DNA from: Tubulanus polymorphus
Taxonomy: Eukaryota; Nemertea; Palaeonemertea; Tubulaniformes; Tubulanidae
Reading direction: 5' to 3'
Length of the DNA: 64,000 nt
Assembly (NCBI RefSeq): GCF_964204645.1
Contig: NC_134028.1
Coordinates: forward strand, 24,216,153-24,280,152
Part shown: piece by piece, positions 55,782-64,000 of the stretch
Position numbering within the stretch: the first letter of the stretch is position 1
Layout of the letters: each line of letters starts with the position of its first letter
Program-made: the position numbers and the translations under genes
Notes under the pieces: generated by a model
Seen by the model: the letters and a program-made list of their open reading frames with translations, nothing else
The model's database searches: none
Told to the model about the DNA's origin: nothing

Positions 55782-57580
55782 ATGCAAGGATATAACGGAT
55801 TTGCTTTCCCACCACCGGCTTCTGCTCACATGGCGCGATGTCCACTACCGACTTCTCATCATCAGTCCGCGTTCAGTATCAATCCTCATTCGTCGCTTGT
55901 AAATAATCCAGCCCTTTACGGATTTCCAGGAAGTTTCAACGGACCAGTACCGACTCTTACGTTAGCCGAAAGATTAGCAGGTATGATATTTATAACTTTC
56001 TTTGCTTAAGATATGGAATCATTAATTTGATTGATAGATTTTGATATGATTTGATTTGGTGCCCCTGCTCATATTACAAACCCATGACTAACCCATACAA
56101 ACGAATGACTTTTTAAGAACGATCAAAGACGTGTTGAATGTGTAAAATATACGATGAATTTTCAAGTTTAATTTCATTTCGTAATTCGTTTGCTTTTTTA
56201 CTATCTGAAAATGAATAATATAACGATTTACGATTGTTTGTTTTTAGATATCATTCTGGAGGCTCGTTACGGCGCCCAACGTAAGCAAAGAAGAAGCCGG
56301 ACTGCGTTCACAAACCAACAACTCGGGGCACTTGAAAAAACTTTCGCAAAAACTCATTACCCCGATGTTGTTATGAGGGAACGGCTGGCTATCATGACGA
56401 ATCTACCAGAAGCAAGAATCCAGGTAAAATTTATTAAGGCTCAATGTTTTTTTCAAATTCATTATCAAAGCTTTTAATTGCCCGGGTAAACTTGTTTTAG
56501 TTTTCCCTATTCTCTTCTTACATATGATGTAAGTAAAGCCAAAGAGCATTTGGATTTTAGGCTGAGTAAATTATAATTGTTATAACAAAAATAGATTATT
56601 TCTAATGTCTGATTTTGATGTTTAAAGATTATTCAAACCTGTAGCGGTAACAAAACTTCAAAGTTTGATGTTTTATTCAAAATTGTTTCTTCAAAATTAC
56701 TGTTCTATATCCCGAATTACTAATAATAAAATTTCCGACATTTTAGGTATGGTTCAAAAATCGAAGAGCCAAGTTTCGCAAGAAACAGAAAGGCGTGAAA
56801 GTCAATCAACCAGCGAAGTCATCGAACGGGCAAAATCTCAGCCATTCGTCGACAACACCAACTCGTGCCATACCGCCATCCGGGTCAGCTGATGTGCTTG
56901 AGGATGACGGCTCGTCCGATGAAACAATGATGGATGCAGACAACCGCGATGTCGATACTTCAGTCGATGTAGACAATGAGGAAATGTGTGGCGAAGATGA
57001 CAATGGCAATGACGTGAACGGAAAGTACGAAATGGTCGAAGATAAACATCAAATATCTGCTGTTAATGAAGGTTAGATTTACAAAAACGATCGCATTTTA
57101 TCCAAAGTTCTATTAAGTTAAGAAAACTAAACTCAAAGCTATGTGATTATCATCTTGTGATTTATTTATAGGGTTATCGCAATCGGATTCTAGTGCTTCT
57201 ATTGCACATGGAGAAACCAGTACAAAATCAACTAAGTGTCGAAACGGAATCTGGAAAGTTGAGAGTATGATCAATGAACCTTCACAAACAGGTAATTATT
57301 GAAAATCATAGATAATCGTTCTCGTCCAGAATATGCTGATTTAAAAAGAATGATTGTTATTCTAGGGAAAATCTCTTCAGAAAATCATCTAGTTTCCACG
57401 AACCCCATGACTCCATATTGGTCTTCTCCGTTCGCATTTTTGGGCATACGACCACAGCCGGGACTCGACAACAGTGCAGTTACTGACATACCGTTCGGAC
57501 ATTCCACTTCTCATCATCAAATACCAGCGAGCATGTACCCAGCATACGCGTGGCAGCAACTTTACTATCACATCCAACAA

Positions 57581-58819: not shown

Positions 58820-60934
58820 GTCTGTCTGCAGAGTTTCCAGAACCTGTCATGTCAGGTCTTAAGTCCCGAAAAAACCCAAACTCATGACAATATTTGACGG
58901 AACGGCGAAATATCTAGGCATGTGTTAGACGAATGGAAGAACATTTTGAGTTGAATGAATATTCTGACCCGTCGTTAATATCGAAAATGATTCAACAATA
59001 ACGATAAGGAAAATGTTCTGACAAATAATTCATTTGAAAGGTTGATTTATAAGAAGAAAATATTTATGTGTAAACTATGACTTATTTCTGTATTAAAGGT
59101 AAAAAATACGTTTCTGGCAAAGATGAATTAATTAATGTAGAAATAAGAGCACATTATAAGAGAATATTTTCGCTAGATGAATCGAGGTCTTGATATTTCG
59201 TTTCCGCAATAAGACACTGAAAATTATCTGCTCACTATCACAGTTCGGCAACACTCCTCACTGTCCTGAAGTCCTGAAGTCTCACTATTTATATTCATTT
59301 TCTTTATGATGTACATGTAAAAGAGCCGAATGCAATATAGAGACTGATTTTAAATCAACTCATCAATTTAAAGCATGAAGTTTTTTTCTTATATCAGTTT
59401 TAATGCAGACCTGTCACCACAGGTCCCGAGAAGCTCTGTAAAATGGCGCGAGCCGCCGTGTGAGGTCTCGCTTCATAATTAATGTTTTATAGTAACTTAA
59501 GATTAACTATATCCATGGTTAGCAATCTATTTTATATTCATTACTATAAAGATACCATAAAAAGTAAAGTTTTTTCCATTTCATCAGTTTTAGTGCAGAC
59601 CTGTCACCACAGGTCCCGAGGAGCTCTGCAAAATGGCGCGAGCTGCCGTGTGAGGTCTCGCTTCAAAATTATTGTTTTGTAGTAACTTAAGATTAACTAT
59701 ATCCATGGTTAGCAATCTATATTATATTCATTACTATACAGATACCATAAAAAGTAAAGTTTTTTCCATTTCATCAGTTTTCAAGCAGACCTGTCACCAC
59801 AGGTCTCGAGAAGCTCTGCAAAATGGCGCGAGCTGCCGTGTGAGGTCTCGCTTCATAATTAATGTTTTATAGTAACTTAAGATTAACTATATCCATGGTT
59901 AGCAATCTATTTTATATTCATTACTATAAAGATACCATAAAAAGTAAAGTTTTTTCCATTTCATCAGTTTTCAAGCAGACCTGTCACCACAGGTCCCGAG
60001 GAGCTCTGCAAAATGGCGCGAGCTGCCGTGTCAGGTCTCGCTTCATAATTATTGTTTTATAGTAACTTAAGATTAATTCTATCCATGGTTAGCAATTTAT
60101 ATTATACTCTTTACTATAAAGATACCATAAAAATTAATGTTTTCCTTCATTTCATCAGTTTTAGTGCAGACCTGTCACCACAGGTCCCGAAGCTCTGCAA
60201 AATGGCGCGAGCTGCCGTGTCAGGTCTCGCTTCATAATTATTGTTTTATAGTAACTTAAGATTAATTCTATCCATGGTTAGCAATTTATATTATACTCTT
60301 TACTATAAAGAGACCATAAAAATTAATGTTTTCCTTCATTTCATCAGTTTTAATGCAGACCTGTCACCACAGGTCTCGAGAAGCTCTGCAAAATGGCGCG
60401 AGCTGCCGTGTCAGGTCTCGCTTCATAATTATTGTTTTATAGTAACTTAAGATTAACTCTATCTATGGTTAGCAATTTATATTATACTCTTTACTATAAA
60501 GAGACCATAAAAATTAACGTTTTCCTTCATTTCATCAGTTTTAATGCAGACCTGTCACTACAGGTCTCGAGAAGCTCTGCAAAATGGCGCGAGCTGCCGT
60601 GTGAGGTCTCGCTTCAAAATTATTGAAATCAAATAATTCACAATCATTGCATCTTTACAAGGCAAACATAAATTCTTAAATGAATTCATAACACACCATA
60701 GTTTGTTTTTTGTTTTAGAATAATATATTCAGAAAGCACTAAGATATGTTCTTTTTGTTTCTTATCGGCTATCATTTGTTTTAAATCCGCGCCTATCATA
60801 TCTTCTAATCGTCTATCATCGGTTCAGTCATTACGATTTTCATTTTAGCAAATCGACCTGTCACCTGAGGTCCCACCTGTCATGTCAGGTCTTGGGCCCT
60901 GACATGACAGGTTCTGGAAACTCTGCAGACAGAC
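58820..60934. mobile_element. TIR-bounded element carrying a 190-bp satellite array
   Basis: A perfect 37-bp inverted repeat (58820-58856, starting GTCTGTCTGCAGAGTTTCC, and 60898-60934) bounds 2.1 kb. Weaker similarity continues outward (GGAAGTTCC / GGAACTTC). Between the ends lies the tandem array at 59377-60625. ACCTGTCATGTCAGGT and GACCTGTCACC-type dyads occur in both ends and in the array units, so the array seems to have grown from the terminal sequence. No transposase is encoded. Confidence 0.75.
59377..60625 (+). repeat. Tandem satellite, ~190-bp unit, about 6.5 copies
   Basis: The anchor GCAGACCTGTCAC occurs at 59405, 59595, 59785, 59975, 60166, 60355 and 60546, a period of 189-191. 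Each unit holds a GACCTGTCACCACAGGTC dyad, AAATGGCGCGAGC and TTAAGATTAA. Each unit opens a 61-69-codon frame starting at TTTTATAGTAAC-like sequence, but the period is not a multiple of three and the frames do not fuse, so these are not real genes. Confidence 0.95.
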
Positions 60935-61045: not shown

Positions 61046-64000
61046 ATGGCAGGTTTTCAACGATGCCAATCGATTTCTAGCAGTGAGGACACTTTGGGGA
61101 AAGGTTACGAAGAAATAAAATCTACTTTCACTTTCTTCCGGGAAAATGGGCGTAAACTGGAAAAACTTTGTCGTGATACTAAGTGTATCTATGAAGAAAT
61201 CGAAAAAGATCTAAGGGGGGTTAGCTTTCGGAAATCCCTTTCAAATTACCTTTTACTGGAAGGAGAGGAGAAAAAAGTTGAGCAACTCAAACATAATCCG
61301 AGTCTGATTTTTGTCGGTAAGATTCTTCTTTCGCTTTCTTGACTAATATTAACAGGCTTTATTTCCTTCATTGGGCTCTTGGTTTGTTTACGATTTACAC
61401 GACATTCCTGTTTTAGGGCAAACCAAGGCTGGTAAAAGTTCGCTGATCAACGAACTGCTCGGCAAATCGCTGGTAACTTCGGATCAACGACCGTGCACCG
61501 CGCGACTCGTCAGGCTGACTTACGGCGATGTTGCGTTTCCGAAAATCACGATACTAAACCCCGATTCATCGGTGCACACACCGGCTGAACAGATAAAAAC
61601 CTCCCACGTTCCGACGGAATTCGTTAATTTACCGTTTGAAGAACGCGATAACGAGACGACCGTTCAAACTAGCGTACAAGTTGAAGTCAAACATCAGTTG
61701 CTGGAAGCCGGCGTAGATATCATCGATTCTCCGGGGAGGAATGAAAATAAAACGTTGGATAACCTCGTTACGCAACAGATGGATTCAATACTGCCGTTAG
61801 TGATGTATGTAATTGATGGCAGAAACTGCTTGACAAGTTCGGTAAAATATCAGTTACATTTTCATTTACATCACTGGATAATTGTACAATAGAACCAATA
61901 ACAGCAACTGTTGACTCCATCCAACAGTAGTCAGAAAATTTTTAAAAAACTGGGGAATTGGAAATTTGTGAATTTGATAGATTTTTCATTAAGCTGGAGG
62001 ATATTTTTGAAATTTTAACATGCTTCACATAGCATATGCCCAGGGTGAATTTTGTCAGCAATCTTTCTTGAAAATCACCTTTATCGACAACTTGTCCCCA
62101 TTAAAATGTTGACATCCCTGTAGTATGATCCTATCTGGCCTACTAGGGCTAGTTTCGTGAAAGGTCAAATTCAAATTTTCTGGTGTAGGCCTATTGGTTT
62201 CTTCACATTTTCGATTCGGAAAACAATTCAAACTTAACTATTTTGAGCTTGAACTTTTTCCAGAAACTGATTTTTAAATCCATCGTATTTCATATTTACA
62301 GGACATTCAAGATATTCAAGCAATTATCGAAAAAACGTCGTCTTGCGAAAATGTGTTTTTCATCGTGAATAAGATCGACCCTCAGCCGAAACGCGGGACA
62401 AGTTCTTCCGACGAGACCGATTCCGATGAAACGGACGACGACAGCGAATCCGAAGACGACATCATCAAACGAGAGCAAGGCATCAAAGCAAAAATATTCA
62501 ATAAGCTCGTCCGTGCCAAATTCATCAACAAAAAATATGAAAATAAAATGGATGATTGTCCGAATTTCCACGCTTTATCGTCATGGGAAGTGAAGACATA
62601 CCGAAGAACCTACCAAAAAAATCCAGCGATGGCTGAAAAAACACGTTACGTAGATCATTTCTACCGATTTCAGAAATGTTTGAATGACTACATCAAAGAA
62701 CAATTGGATCGAAAGATTAAGACAGCAATTGACGGCATTTTGATGTCCCACTGCAGATGTTTAGATTTTTTCATTCTGACCGCGAACGATATCAGCAAAA
62801 CGCAACGATCCGTCGAGAAGGATATGCTCGATTTCGCTAAACAAGAACAGAGTCTGTACAGGAATGCTACCGAAATGATTGACCAGCAAGCTTCGGATTT
62901 TAATAAGCTCCTGGTTGAAAGGATGGCCTTGAAAAACAACGATATTATCAGCGCAGTTGGGCAGTACGAATACCAAGAGGAAGAGCTGAAGGTGACGATT
63001 ACCAGAGATAAAAGAATTAAAGATTCAGAGTTTGTAGACCGCTGTAAACGTAAGATCGTTGAAGTAACGCAAAGATATCTCAGCGAAGAGATCACCAATC
63101 TTTTAGTAGAAAAGTTTAATCAAGGGGACATGCTATTGTCGGAATTAGCTTCACGCGTAGAGGCACTAGGGAGTGACGATGGGTATCAAGGCGCGGCTCG
63201 AGTCCTGAGGAAAACGCTCATAGAGTGTTACCAGTTCGATTTAGTTGGCAGAGAGTTTAAAAAGAATATATTGCAAAAAGCGTGGAGTGCCGTGGTACGA
63301 TTTTTCAGCAGTATAGCGAGTTTATTCTCCCGAAGTGTTGCTGTTGGGGAGCCACGTTGGAAAGAATCAGTCGCGTCTGCAACTTTGAGTGAAGTCGACC
63401 ACGCACAACTTACGAAATTTGTTCTCGAAGGAGTCAAGGAACATGTCACATTCGGACATAGTAAGTTTGAAAATGAAATGGCCAATCTGCAGCAGATTCA
63501 TGAATCGAATTGCGCAATGGGTGAAGCGGAAAGGAAGAAGTTGACCAATCAAGCACCAACAGTTGCTCAGTTGCAGCTCGACGCTTTTGATCTGAATGAT
63601 CGATTCACATACAACAATATCGTATTGTTAGAAACTATTGGAAAAGGCAGGTGTTTTCAAAGCATTCATATATAGAATTACTGCCCTATACTGCACTACA
63701 CTTGAAGTTAATGATAATATTCCTTATCGTTCCGCGATTTTAGGGGCACAAGGCGTTGTATATGGTACCACAGTCAAAGGACCTGATGGCGAAGATTGCG
63801 CCGTGAAAGTCATCAAGTACCAAAGTAATCAAGATTTAGGCGATTTGGCACTTGAAATTCATTACACCAGGTAATATAGCAGAATCACTTGAATTACAAT
63901 GTATCATTGTTTTTTTGTAGCAGTTTCTAATTGTTTGCATGAATTTTCAGACAATTCAAGCACGAGAATATCATGCCTTTATATGCGTCAGTGCTGATGC
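61046..64000 (+). CDS. DSTYK-like GTPase-kinase (partial, runs off right edge)
   Basis: Dual-specificity Ser/Thr/Tyr kinase family with an N-terminal dynamin-like region. Exons are 61046-61316, 61417-61841, 62302-63646, 63744-63870 and 63951 to the window end. Residues 1-90 are helical. A G1 P-loop follows at 91-98 (GQTKAGKS), a G3-like DSPG at 194-197 and a G4 NKID at 255-258. An acidic Ser/Asp stretch and long helical region follow, including HCRCLDFFI, close to vertebrate HCHCLDIFI. The kinase begins at about 676 with glycine loop GKGAQG (679-684), Lys702 and Glu718 in DLALEIHY. Vertebrate DSTYK has its kinase at a similar position but a degraded P-loop. The intron in the glycine loop seems to use a GC donor. 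It could be the single ortholog or one of several invertebrate paralogs. Confidence 0.88.
61905..62130 (-). repeat. Dispersed repeat family C, copy 2, in a DSTYK intron
   Basis: The reverse complement matches 4065-4310: GTCAACATTTTAATGGGG, GATAAAGGTGATTTTCAAG, AAATTCACAAATTTCC. It fills about half of the 460-bp intron between exons 2 and 3. Confidence 0.6.

Follow-up and report, generated by a model that had tools for sequence, protein, structure and literature searches.

The locus raises the question of whether an animal protein keeps a GTPase and a protein kinase, both with their catalytic motifs, in one chain, and whether such a protein is DSTYK itself or a relative of it. The window, a stretch of 64,000 nucleotides from the nemertean Tubulanus polymorphus (C4:24216153-24280152; C2, C3, C4, C5, C6 and C9 are contig labels of the assembly containing the window, C4 being the window's own), holds a multi-exon animal gene on the + strand in its last 3 kb.

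Gene model and catalytic domains

The spliced reading frame was open and ran beyond the window end, and reading the remainder from the same contig placed the gene end at window-equivalent position 65105 on C4, giving a protein of 936 amino acids encoded by six exons on the + strand. The features within the window are as follows.

61046..61316, + strand, exon 1: ATG, N-terminal region and the strand running into the P-loop (open reading frame, GT donor and in-frame splice; same exon in the tandem copy)
61417..61841, + strand, exon 2: G1 GQTKAGKS (61316/61417-61439), G2 PCTA with Thr118 (61497-61499) and G3 DSPG (61725-61736); Dynamin_N, E 1.9e-17
62302..63646, + strand, exon 3: G4 NKID (62368-62379), acidic insert, putative helical trunk, first kinase strand and start of the Gly-loop; ends with a GC donor
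63744..63870, + strand, exon 4: kinase N-lobe with Lys702 (63806-63808) and Glu718 (63854-63856)
63951..64000, + strand, start of exon 5: continues past the window, with HRD, DFG and APE in the remainder of the gene

Intron 1 splits the codon of the first glycine of G1 (61316/61417-61418), and the interval 61417-62420 of the initial annotation runs from exon 2 through intron 2 into the first part of exon 3. A misjoining of two separate genes was ruled out, as a single frame of exon 3 runs from G4 through the trunk to the first kinase strand. The intron at 63647-63743, with a GC donor (GGAAAAG/GCAGGT) and an AG acceptor, is present in both of the tandem copies described below.

The initial annotation had reported GxxxxGKS, DSPG and NKID motifs in order, and the spliced translation bears this out, with GQTKAGKS at residues 91-98, DSPG at 194-197 and NKID at 255-258. 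Pfam Dynamin_N matched residues 88-256 over profile positions 2-167 of 168, with the E value given above, and MMR_HSR1 was also matched. As that annotation had also proposed, the motifs lie upstream of the kinase and within a G domain, here one of dynamin class fused to a kinase with intact motifs. In 200,000 shuffles of residues 1-672, the ordered G1-G3-G4 pattern never arose, a result that, together with the Dynamin_N match, rules out chance motifs. Thr118 in PCTA, which we take to be the G2 threonine, was invariant across the six intact family members of this genome.

When solved structures (PDB) were searched with the window protein alone, the best match was 2j68, the bacterial dynamin-like protein BDLP (E 5.1e-11), followed by Fzo1 and IniA. 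A profile of 408 positions built from the six intact members, all from this genome, matched 2j68 at E 8.6e-21, Fzo1 at 2.3e-14, mitofusin-2 at 6.2e-11 and mitofusin-1 at 8.4e-10. The best mitofusin-2 and mitofusin-1 entries aligned at profile positions 53-403 and 59-401, respectively, while other mitofusin-1 entries ended at 241. Non-dynamin GTPases such as Der also matched this profile, mainly at the P-loop, the best of them (E 4.7e-11) ranking among the mitofusins. From these matches, we take the class of the G domain to be that of BDLP and the mitofusins, and the presence of G1, G2, G3 and G4 within the Dynamin_N domain places the protein by its motifs in this class of the dynamin superfamily. 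The likeness to BDLP (2j68) and the mitofusins (Fzo1, MFN1, MFN2) covers the G domain and, in the profile search, extends some way into the region that follows. These proteins differ from the window protein with respect to the membrane, as no clear transmembrane segment was found in its residues 1-672, where the six 18-residue stretches of highest hydrophobicity begin at 206-208 and 373-375; BDLP and the mitofusins are also not known to carry a kinase. The helical trunk is proposed from similarity, because single-sequence AlphaFold models made with no alignment reached a mean pLDDT of only 40.1 for exon 3 and 32.9 for exon 2 alone.

Given alone, the kinase domain matched Pkinase at E 1.1e-42. 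The Gly-loop, Lys702 and Glu718 were found together with HRD 790, DFG 813 and APE 835, which lie past the window end, completing the motif set of active eukaryotic protein kinases. With its main catalytic motifs intact, the kinase looks working, as does the mitofusin-type GTPase. A genome search with this domain returned 36 matches, the nearest after the tandem pair being DSTYK, at 50% identity over one exon.

DSTYK and opposite decay among the paralogues

A separate gene of 931 amino acids and 13 exons lies at about C3:7.779-7.791 Mb. Its identity to human DSTYK is 49.7% over 918 columns, and the two group at a support of 100/100; the human sequence used is a provisional one (929 aa), which agrees with print at K681 and D777 (PMC11933320) and at L91 (PMC8490499). 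We identify the C3 gene, from this similarity, as the Tubulanus DSTYK. The window gene aligned to it by blastp at 25% identity over 938 columns (E 1.6e-82) and to the provisional human sequence at 25% over 860 columns. Its sequence makes the window gene a DSTYK (RIPK5, SgK496) paralogue that keeps the motifs of both enzymes. The two are alike in layout, in length (936 and 931 amino acids), in similarity over the full length and in three common introns, and they differ in that the DSTYK of this genome is decayed at G1, G3 and G4 and has DLG where the window gene has DFG. The colinear N-terminal region, trunk and C-terminal kinase fit the DSTYK family in a wide sense, but one-to-one orthology to vertebrate DSTYK fails, since, judged against the provisional human sequence, the orthologue is the C3 gene. 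The identification of the window gene as the animal's own DSTYK, made in the initial annotation, is not borne out.

In the DSTYK of this genome, the kinase motifs HRD, DLG and APE stand. Its G1 reads GQTSNAKA, with the lysine kept and the second glycine and final serine gone, its G3 reads MSPC, with the aspartate and glycine lost, and nothing resembling NKxD is found at G4. Dynamin_N was matched there at only E 0.097, and a solved-structure search with residues 1-645 returned nothing at E ≤ 1. Alignment to the profile of intact members with hhalign placed P-loop on P-loop over 358 columns (probability 99, E 8.1e-18). Judged by its motifs, DSTYK is a pseudo-GTPase in Tubulanus too, and the attribution of the GTPase loss to vertebrates, made at first, is not supported. 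The vertebrate P-loop reads like GQDCNVKC and lacks GKS, and the N-terminal half of human DSTYK appears to be a decayed copy of the same GTPase. If the provisional human sequence is right, the decay predates the split between Tubulanus and vertebrates, because the DSTYK of this genome is already decayed.

In two papers, DSTYK outside its kinase domain is depicted as low-complexity or without known function (PMC8490499) and as non-catalytic (PMC6981171). The weak Pfam signal may be a reason why the region has passed as non-catalytic in the latter. Among the open-literature matches listed, as judged from titles and the starts of abstracts, we recognised no description of a GTPase-like domain in DSTYK, although one may still exist in print.

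A protein search of the genome returned 11 matches at E ≤ 1 among 17 candidates scored, comprising two exons from the window gene, two from its tandem copy, five G-domain exons elsewhere (two on C2 and one each on C5, C9 and C3:18.17 Mb) and two weak exons at C3:7.787 Mb, which are part of the DSTYK gene. The two C2 genes, C2a and C2b, have G1 sequences of GQVNSGKT and GQVNCGKS, G3 sequences of DSPG and DAPG, and NKSE and NKVE at G4. Their kinase halves are without HRDxKxxN and DFG and keep APE, with C2a retaining the HRD aspartate; C2a scored 30.2 bits against Pkinase, below the cut-off of 31.7, and C2b was not listed. Our motif-based guess is that both are pseudokinases. The C5 and C9 loci read GALNSGKS, DTPG and SKCD, and the kinase-like exon of C9 is weak (PK_Tyr_Ser-Thr, E 0.0018). 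The C3:18.17 Mb locus (C3b), read over its G1-G3 exon, has GRVNCGKS and DCPG. Lying 3' of C3b is an extended array of repeats that is open in more than one reading frame (RPRQFIILVLSPATIHYFGF...).

Counting the window gene, its tandem copy, DSTYK, C2a, C2b, C5, C9 and C3b as eight loci, G1 and G3 are kept at seven, DSTYK being the locus where they are lost, and a strict NKxD occurs at two of the seven loci with a readable G4, the window gene and its tandem copy. Full models were obtained for five (the window gene, its copy, DSTYK, C2a and C2b), C5 and C9 being modelled as fragments up to the C-terminal exons and C3b as its G1-G3 exon, and both halves are intact in two of these five, only the window gene and its near-identical copy. 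The C2, C5 and C9 loci have the appearance of dynamin-class GTPases with decayed kinase-like C-terminal parts, with full models for C2 only, and perhaps form an animal family of GTPase-pseudokinases.

A probable single fusion and the tandem copy of the window gene

Introns were compared on an alignment of six models, in which splice joins were picked by score. The intron between G3 and G4, before exon 3, falls in the same column and in phase 0 in all six, and the phase 2 intron after the alpha-C region, after exon 4, is common to all four models that span it. A phase 0 intron after HRDIKxxNxL was found in two of the four spanning models, the window gene and DSTYK, and the remaining two introns of the window gene are not common to other models. 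Because introns are common and similarity extends over the full length, these comparisons point to a single ancestral GTPase-kinase fusion, and the shared introns rule out independent fusions. The same family evidence favours the suggestion in the initial annotation that the ancestral protein was a true GTPase fused to a kinase.

The full-length tree put the window pair, DSTYK and the provisional human sequence together on one side of a branch supported at 99/99; a tree of the G domain alone left the window gene unplaced and separated the two outgroups. The root was inferred from the intact G1 and G3 of BDLP and an EHD-like protein, neither of them a family member. The parsimonious reading of these sequences is an ancestor with both enzymes, one loss of the GTPase on the DSTYK branch and decay of the kinase in C2a and C2b.

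A Hox search gave ten matches that all lie on the same strand of C6, at 5.318-5.635 Mb (5318231-5634774), and two on C5. The Hox-type homeodomain matches on C6 look like an ordered Hox cluster. In one of the four Hox flanks read, the homeodomain is followed by KLNGPN, resembling the Lox5 peptide, which we take to be a lophotrochozoan mark. If this mark and the provisional human sequence hold, DSTYK would have been a pseudo-GTPase before the protostome/deuterostome split. No match came from a scan of viral contigs, whose reach is limited to close relatives.

The near-identical tandem copy lies at C4:24286674-24290730, 9.5 kb 3' of the window gene. Unless the assembly is wrong there, the duplicated block spans 5757 bases at 99.4% identity, with bounds near the gene, and exon 2 is 100% identical between the copies. 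Sixteen codons differ, with 13 amino-acid changes and three silent ones, and with dN at 0.0059 and dS at 0.0051 purifying selection after the duplication is not in evidence from these 16 codons. The G and kinase motifs are untouched by the 13 changes, and the reading frame is open in each copy.

A proposed GTP-switched kinase and its alternatives

With moderate confidence, we propose that the window protein joins a BDLP/mitofusin-class GTPase to a helical trunk and a C-terminal kinase, and that, as the likeliest mechanism, GTP-driven dimerisation on membranes switches the kinase on. Binding of GTP would lead the G domains to dimerise on the late-endosomal or lysosomal membrane, for which the mitofusins on mitochondria would be a parallel; dimerisation would bring the kinase domains together for activation in trans, the activated protein would act in membrane fusion or signalling, and hydrolysis of GTP would reset it. 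In DSTYK proper, what is left of the G domain would serve as no more than a scaffold for membrane attachment or dimerisation. We assume membrane binding of the window protein by analogy with DSTYK and the mitofusins, and the nucleotide-controlled activation suggested in the initial annotation stays a proposal. The sequence case is firm, with support for both catalytic domains and their motifs, for one fusion, for GTPase decay in DSTYK and for kinase decay in C2a and C2b; the GTP switch of the kinase is hypothetical.

In published work, DSTYK, including its kinase-dead form, is placed on late endosomes, where DSTYK phosphorylates STING (PMC11933320), its overexpression causes late endosomes and lysosomes to fuse and enlarge (PMC6981171), and it regulates membrane fusion with the notochord vacuole (PMC7012607). 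A mitofusin-class module would make sense of these late-endosome, lysosome and vacuole fusion roles.

A possible but less probable reading is a protein with two folded domains whose GTPase does bind nucleotide but acts only as a scaffold for membrane recruitment or dimerisation, with the kinase independent of nucleotide state. In favour of a scaffold, DSTYK proper functions although its G domain is decayed, and the kinase-dead form of the human protein is still found on LAMP1 membranes (PMC11933320), so that the halves are separable. However, G1, G2, G3 and G4 have stayed intact in a lineage 25% identical to DSTYK, which suggests that a full nucleotide cycle is in use. It is improbable that the window gene is a recent duplicate in decay, its motifs intact only through youth. 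The 13 amino-acid against three silent codon changes between the copies would fit such decay, yet 16 changed codons are too few for an estimate of selection, and the lineage is old, as its identity to DSTYK indicates, with six exons open and the catalytic motifs kept in both copies. We give hardly any credence to the window gene as a direct DSTYK orthologue whose GTPase was lost in vertebrates; its full-length similarity to the provisional human DSTYK would allow this, but the C3 gene has about twice that identity to the human sequence (49.7% against 25%), groups with it in the tree and is already decayed at G1, G3 and G4, and direct orthology was rejected on the identity figures and the tree.

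Returning to the GTP-switched reading, we hold it somewhat probable that the DSTYK family is an unrecognised class of the dynamin superfamily, made up of mitofusin-like GTPases joined to kinases, in which one enzyme has decayed per branch and of which the window gene keeps the ancestral GTP-switched membrane kinase. The family would then be a case of opposite enzyme losses inside one fusion. If the N-terminal region of DSTYK is a decayed mitofusin-class module, its late-endosomal location and membrane-fusion phenotypes would be explained and its N-terminal variants would gain a frame, and the window gene, as a relative still with GTPase motifs, makes the idea testable. p190RhoGAP, which is not known to carry a kinase and has a G-domain class other than that of the window protein, is a precedent for a hidden GTPase-like domain such as we propose for DSTYK. 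Its pseudoGTPase domains are GTPase-like domains within a region once deemed unstructured (PMC5593906). LRRK1 and LRRK2, described in PMC9573974 as carrying a Roc GTPase and a kinase in one chain, offer an analogy in how the window protein might work; they lie outside the family and differ from it in having Roc-COR and leucine-rich repeats in place of a dynamin-class G domain. Malformation of the kidney and urinary tract and spastic paraplegia type 23 have both been associated with variants of DSTYK (PMC8490499), though the pathogenicity of these variants is debated (PMC7012607).

Just 5' of the window gene, a 190-bp tandem repeat of 6.6 copies with 94% matches occupies window positions 59378-60625. 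A homeobox exon lies at 56172-57076, with its end in an adjacent open frame, and looks Dmbx-like.
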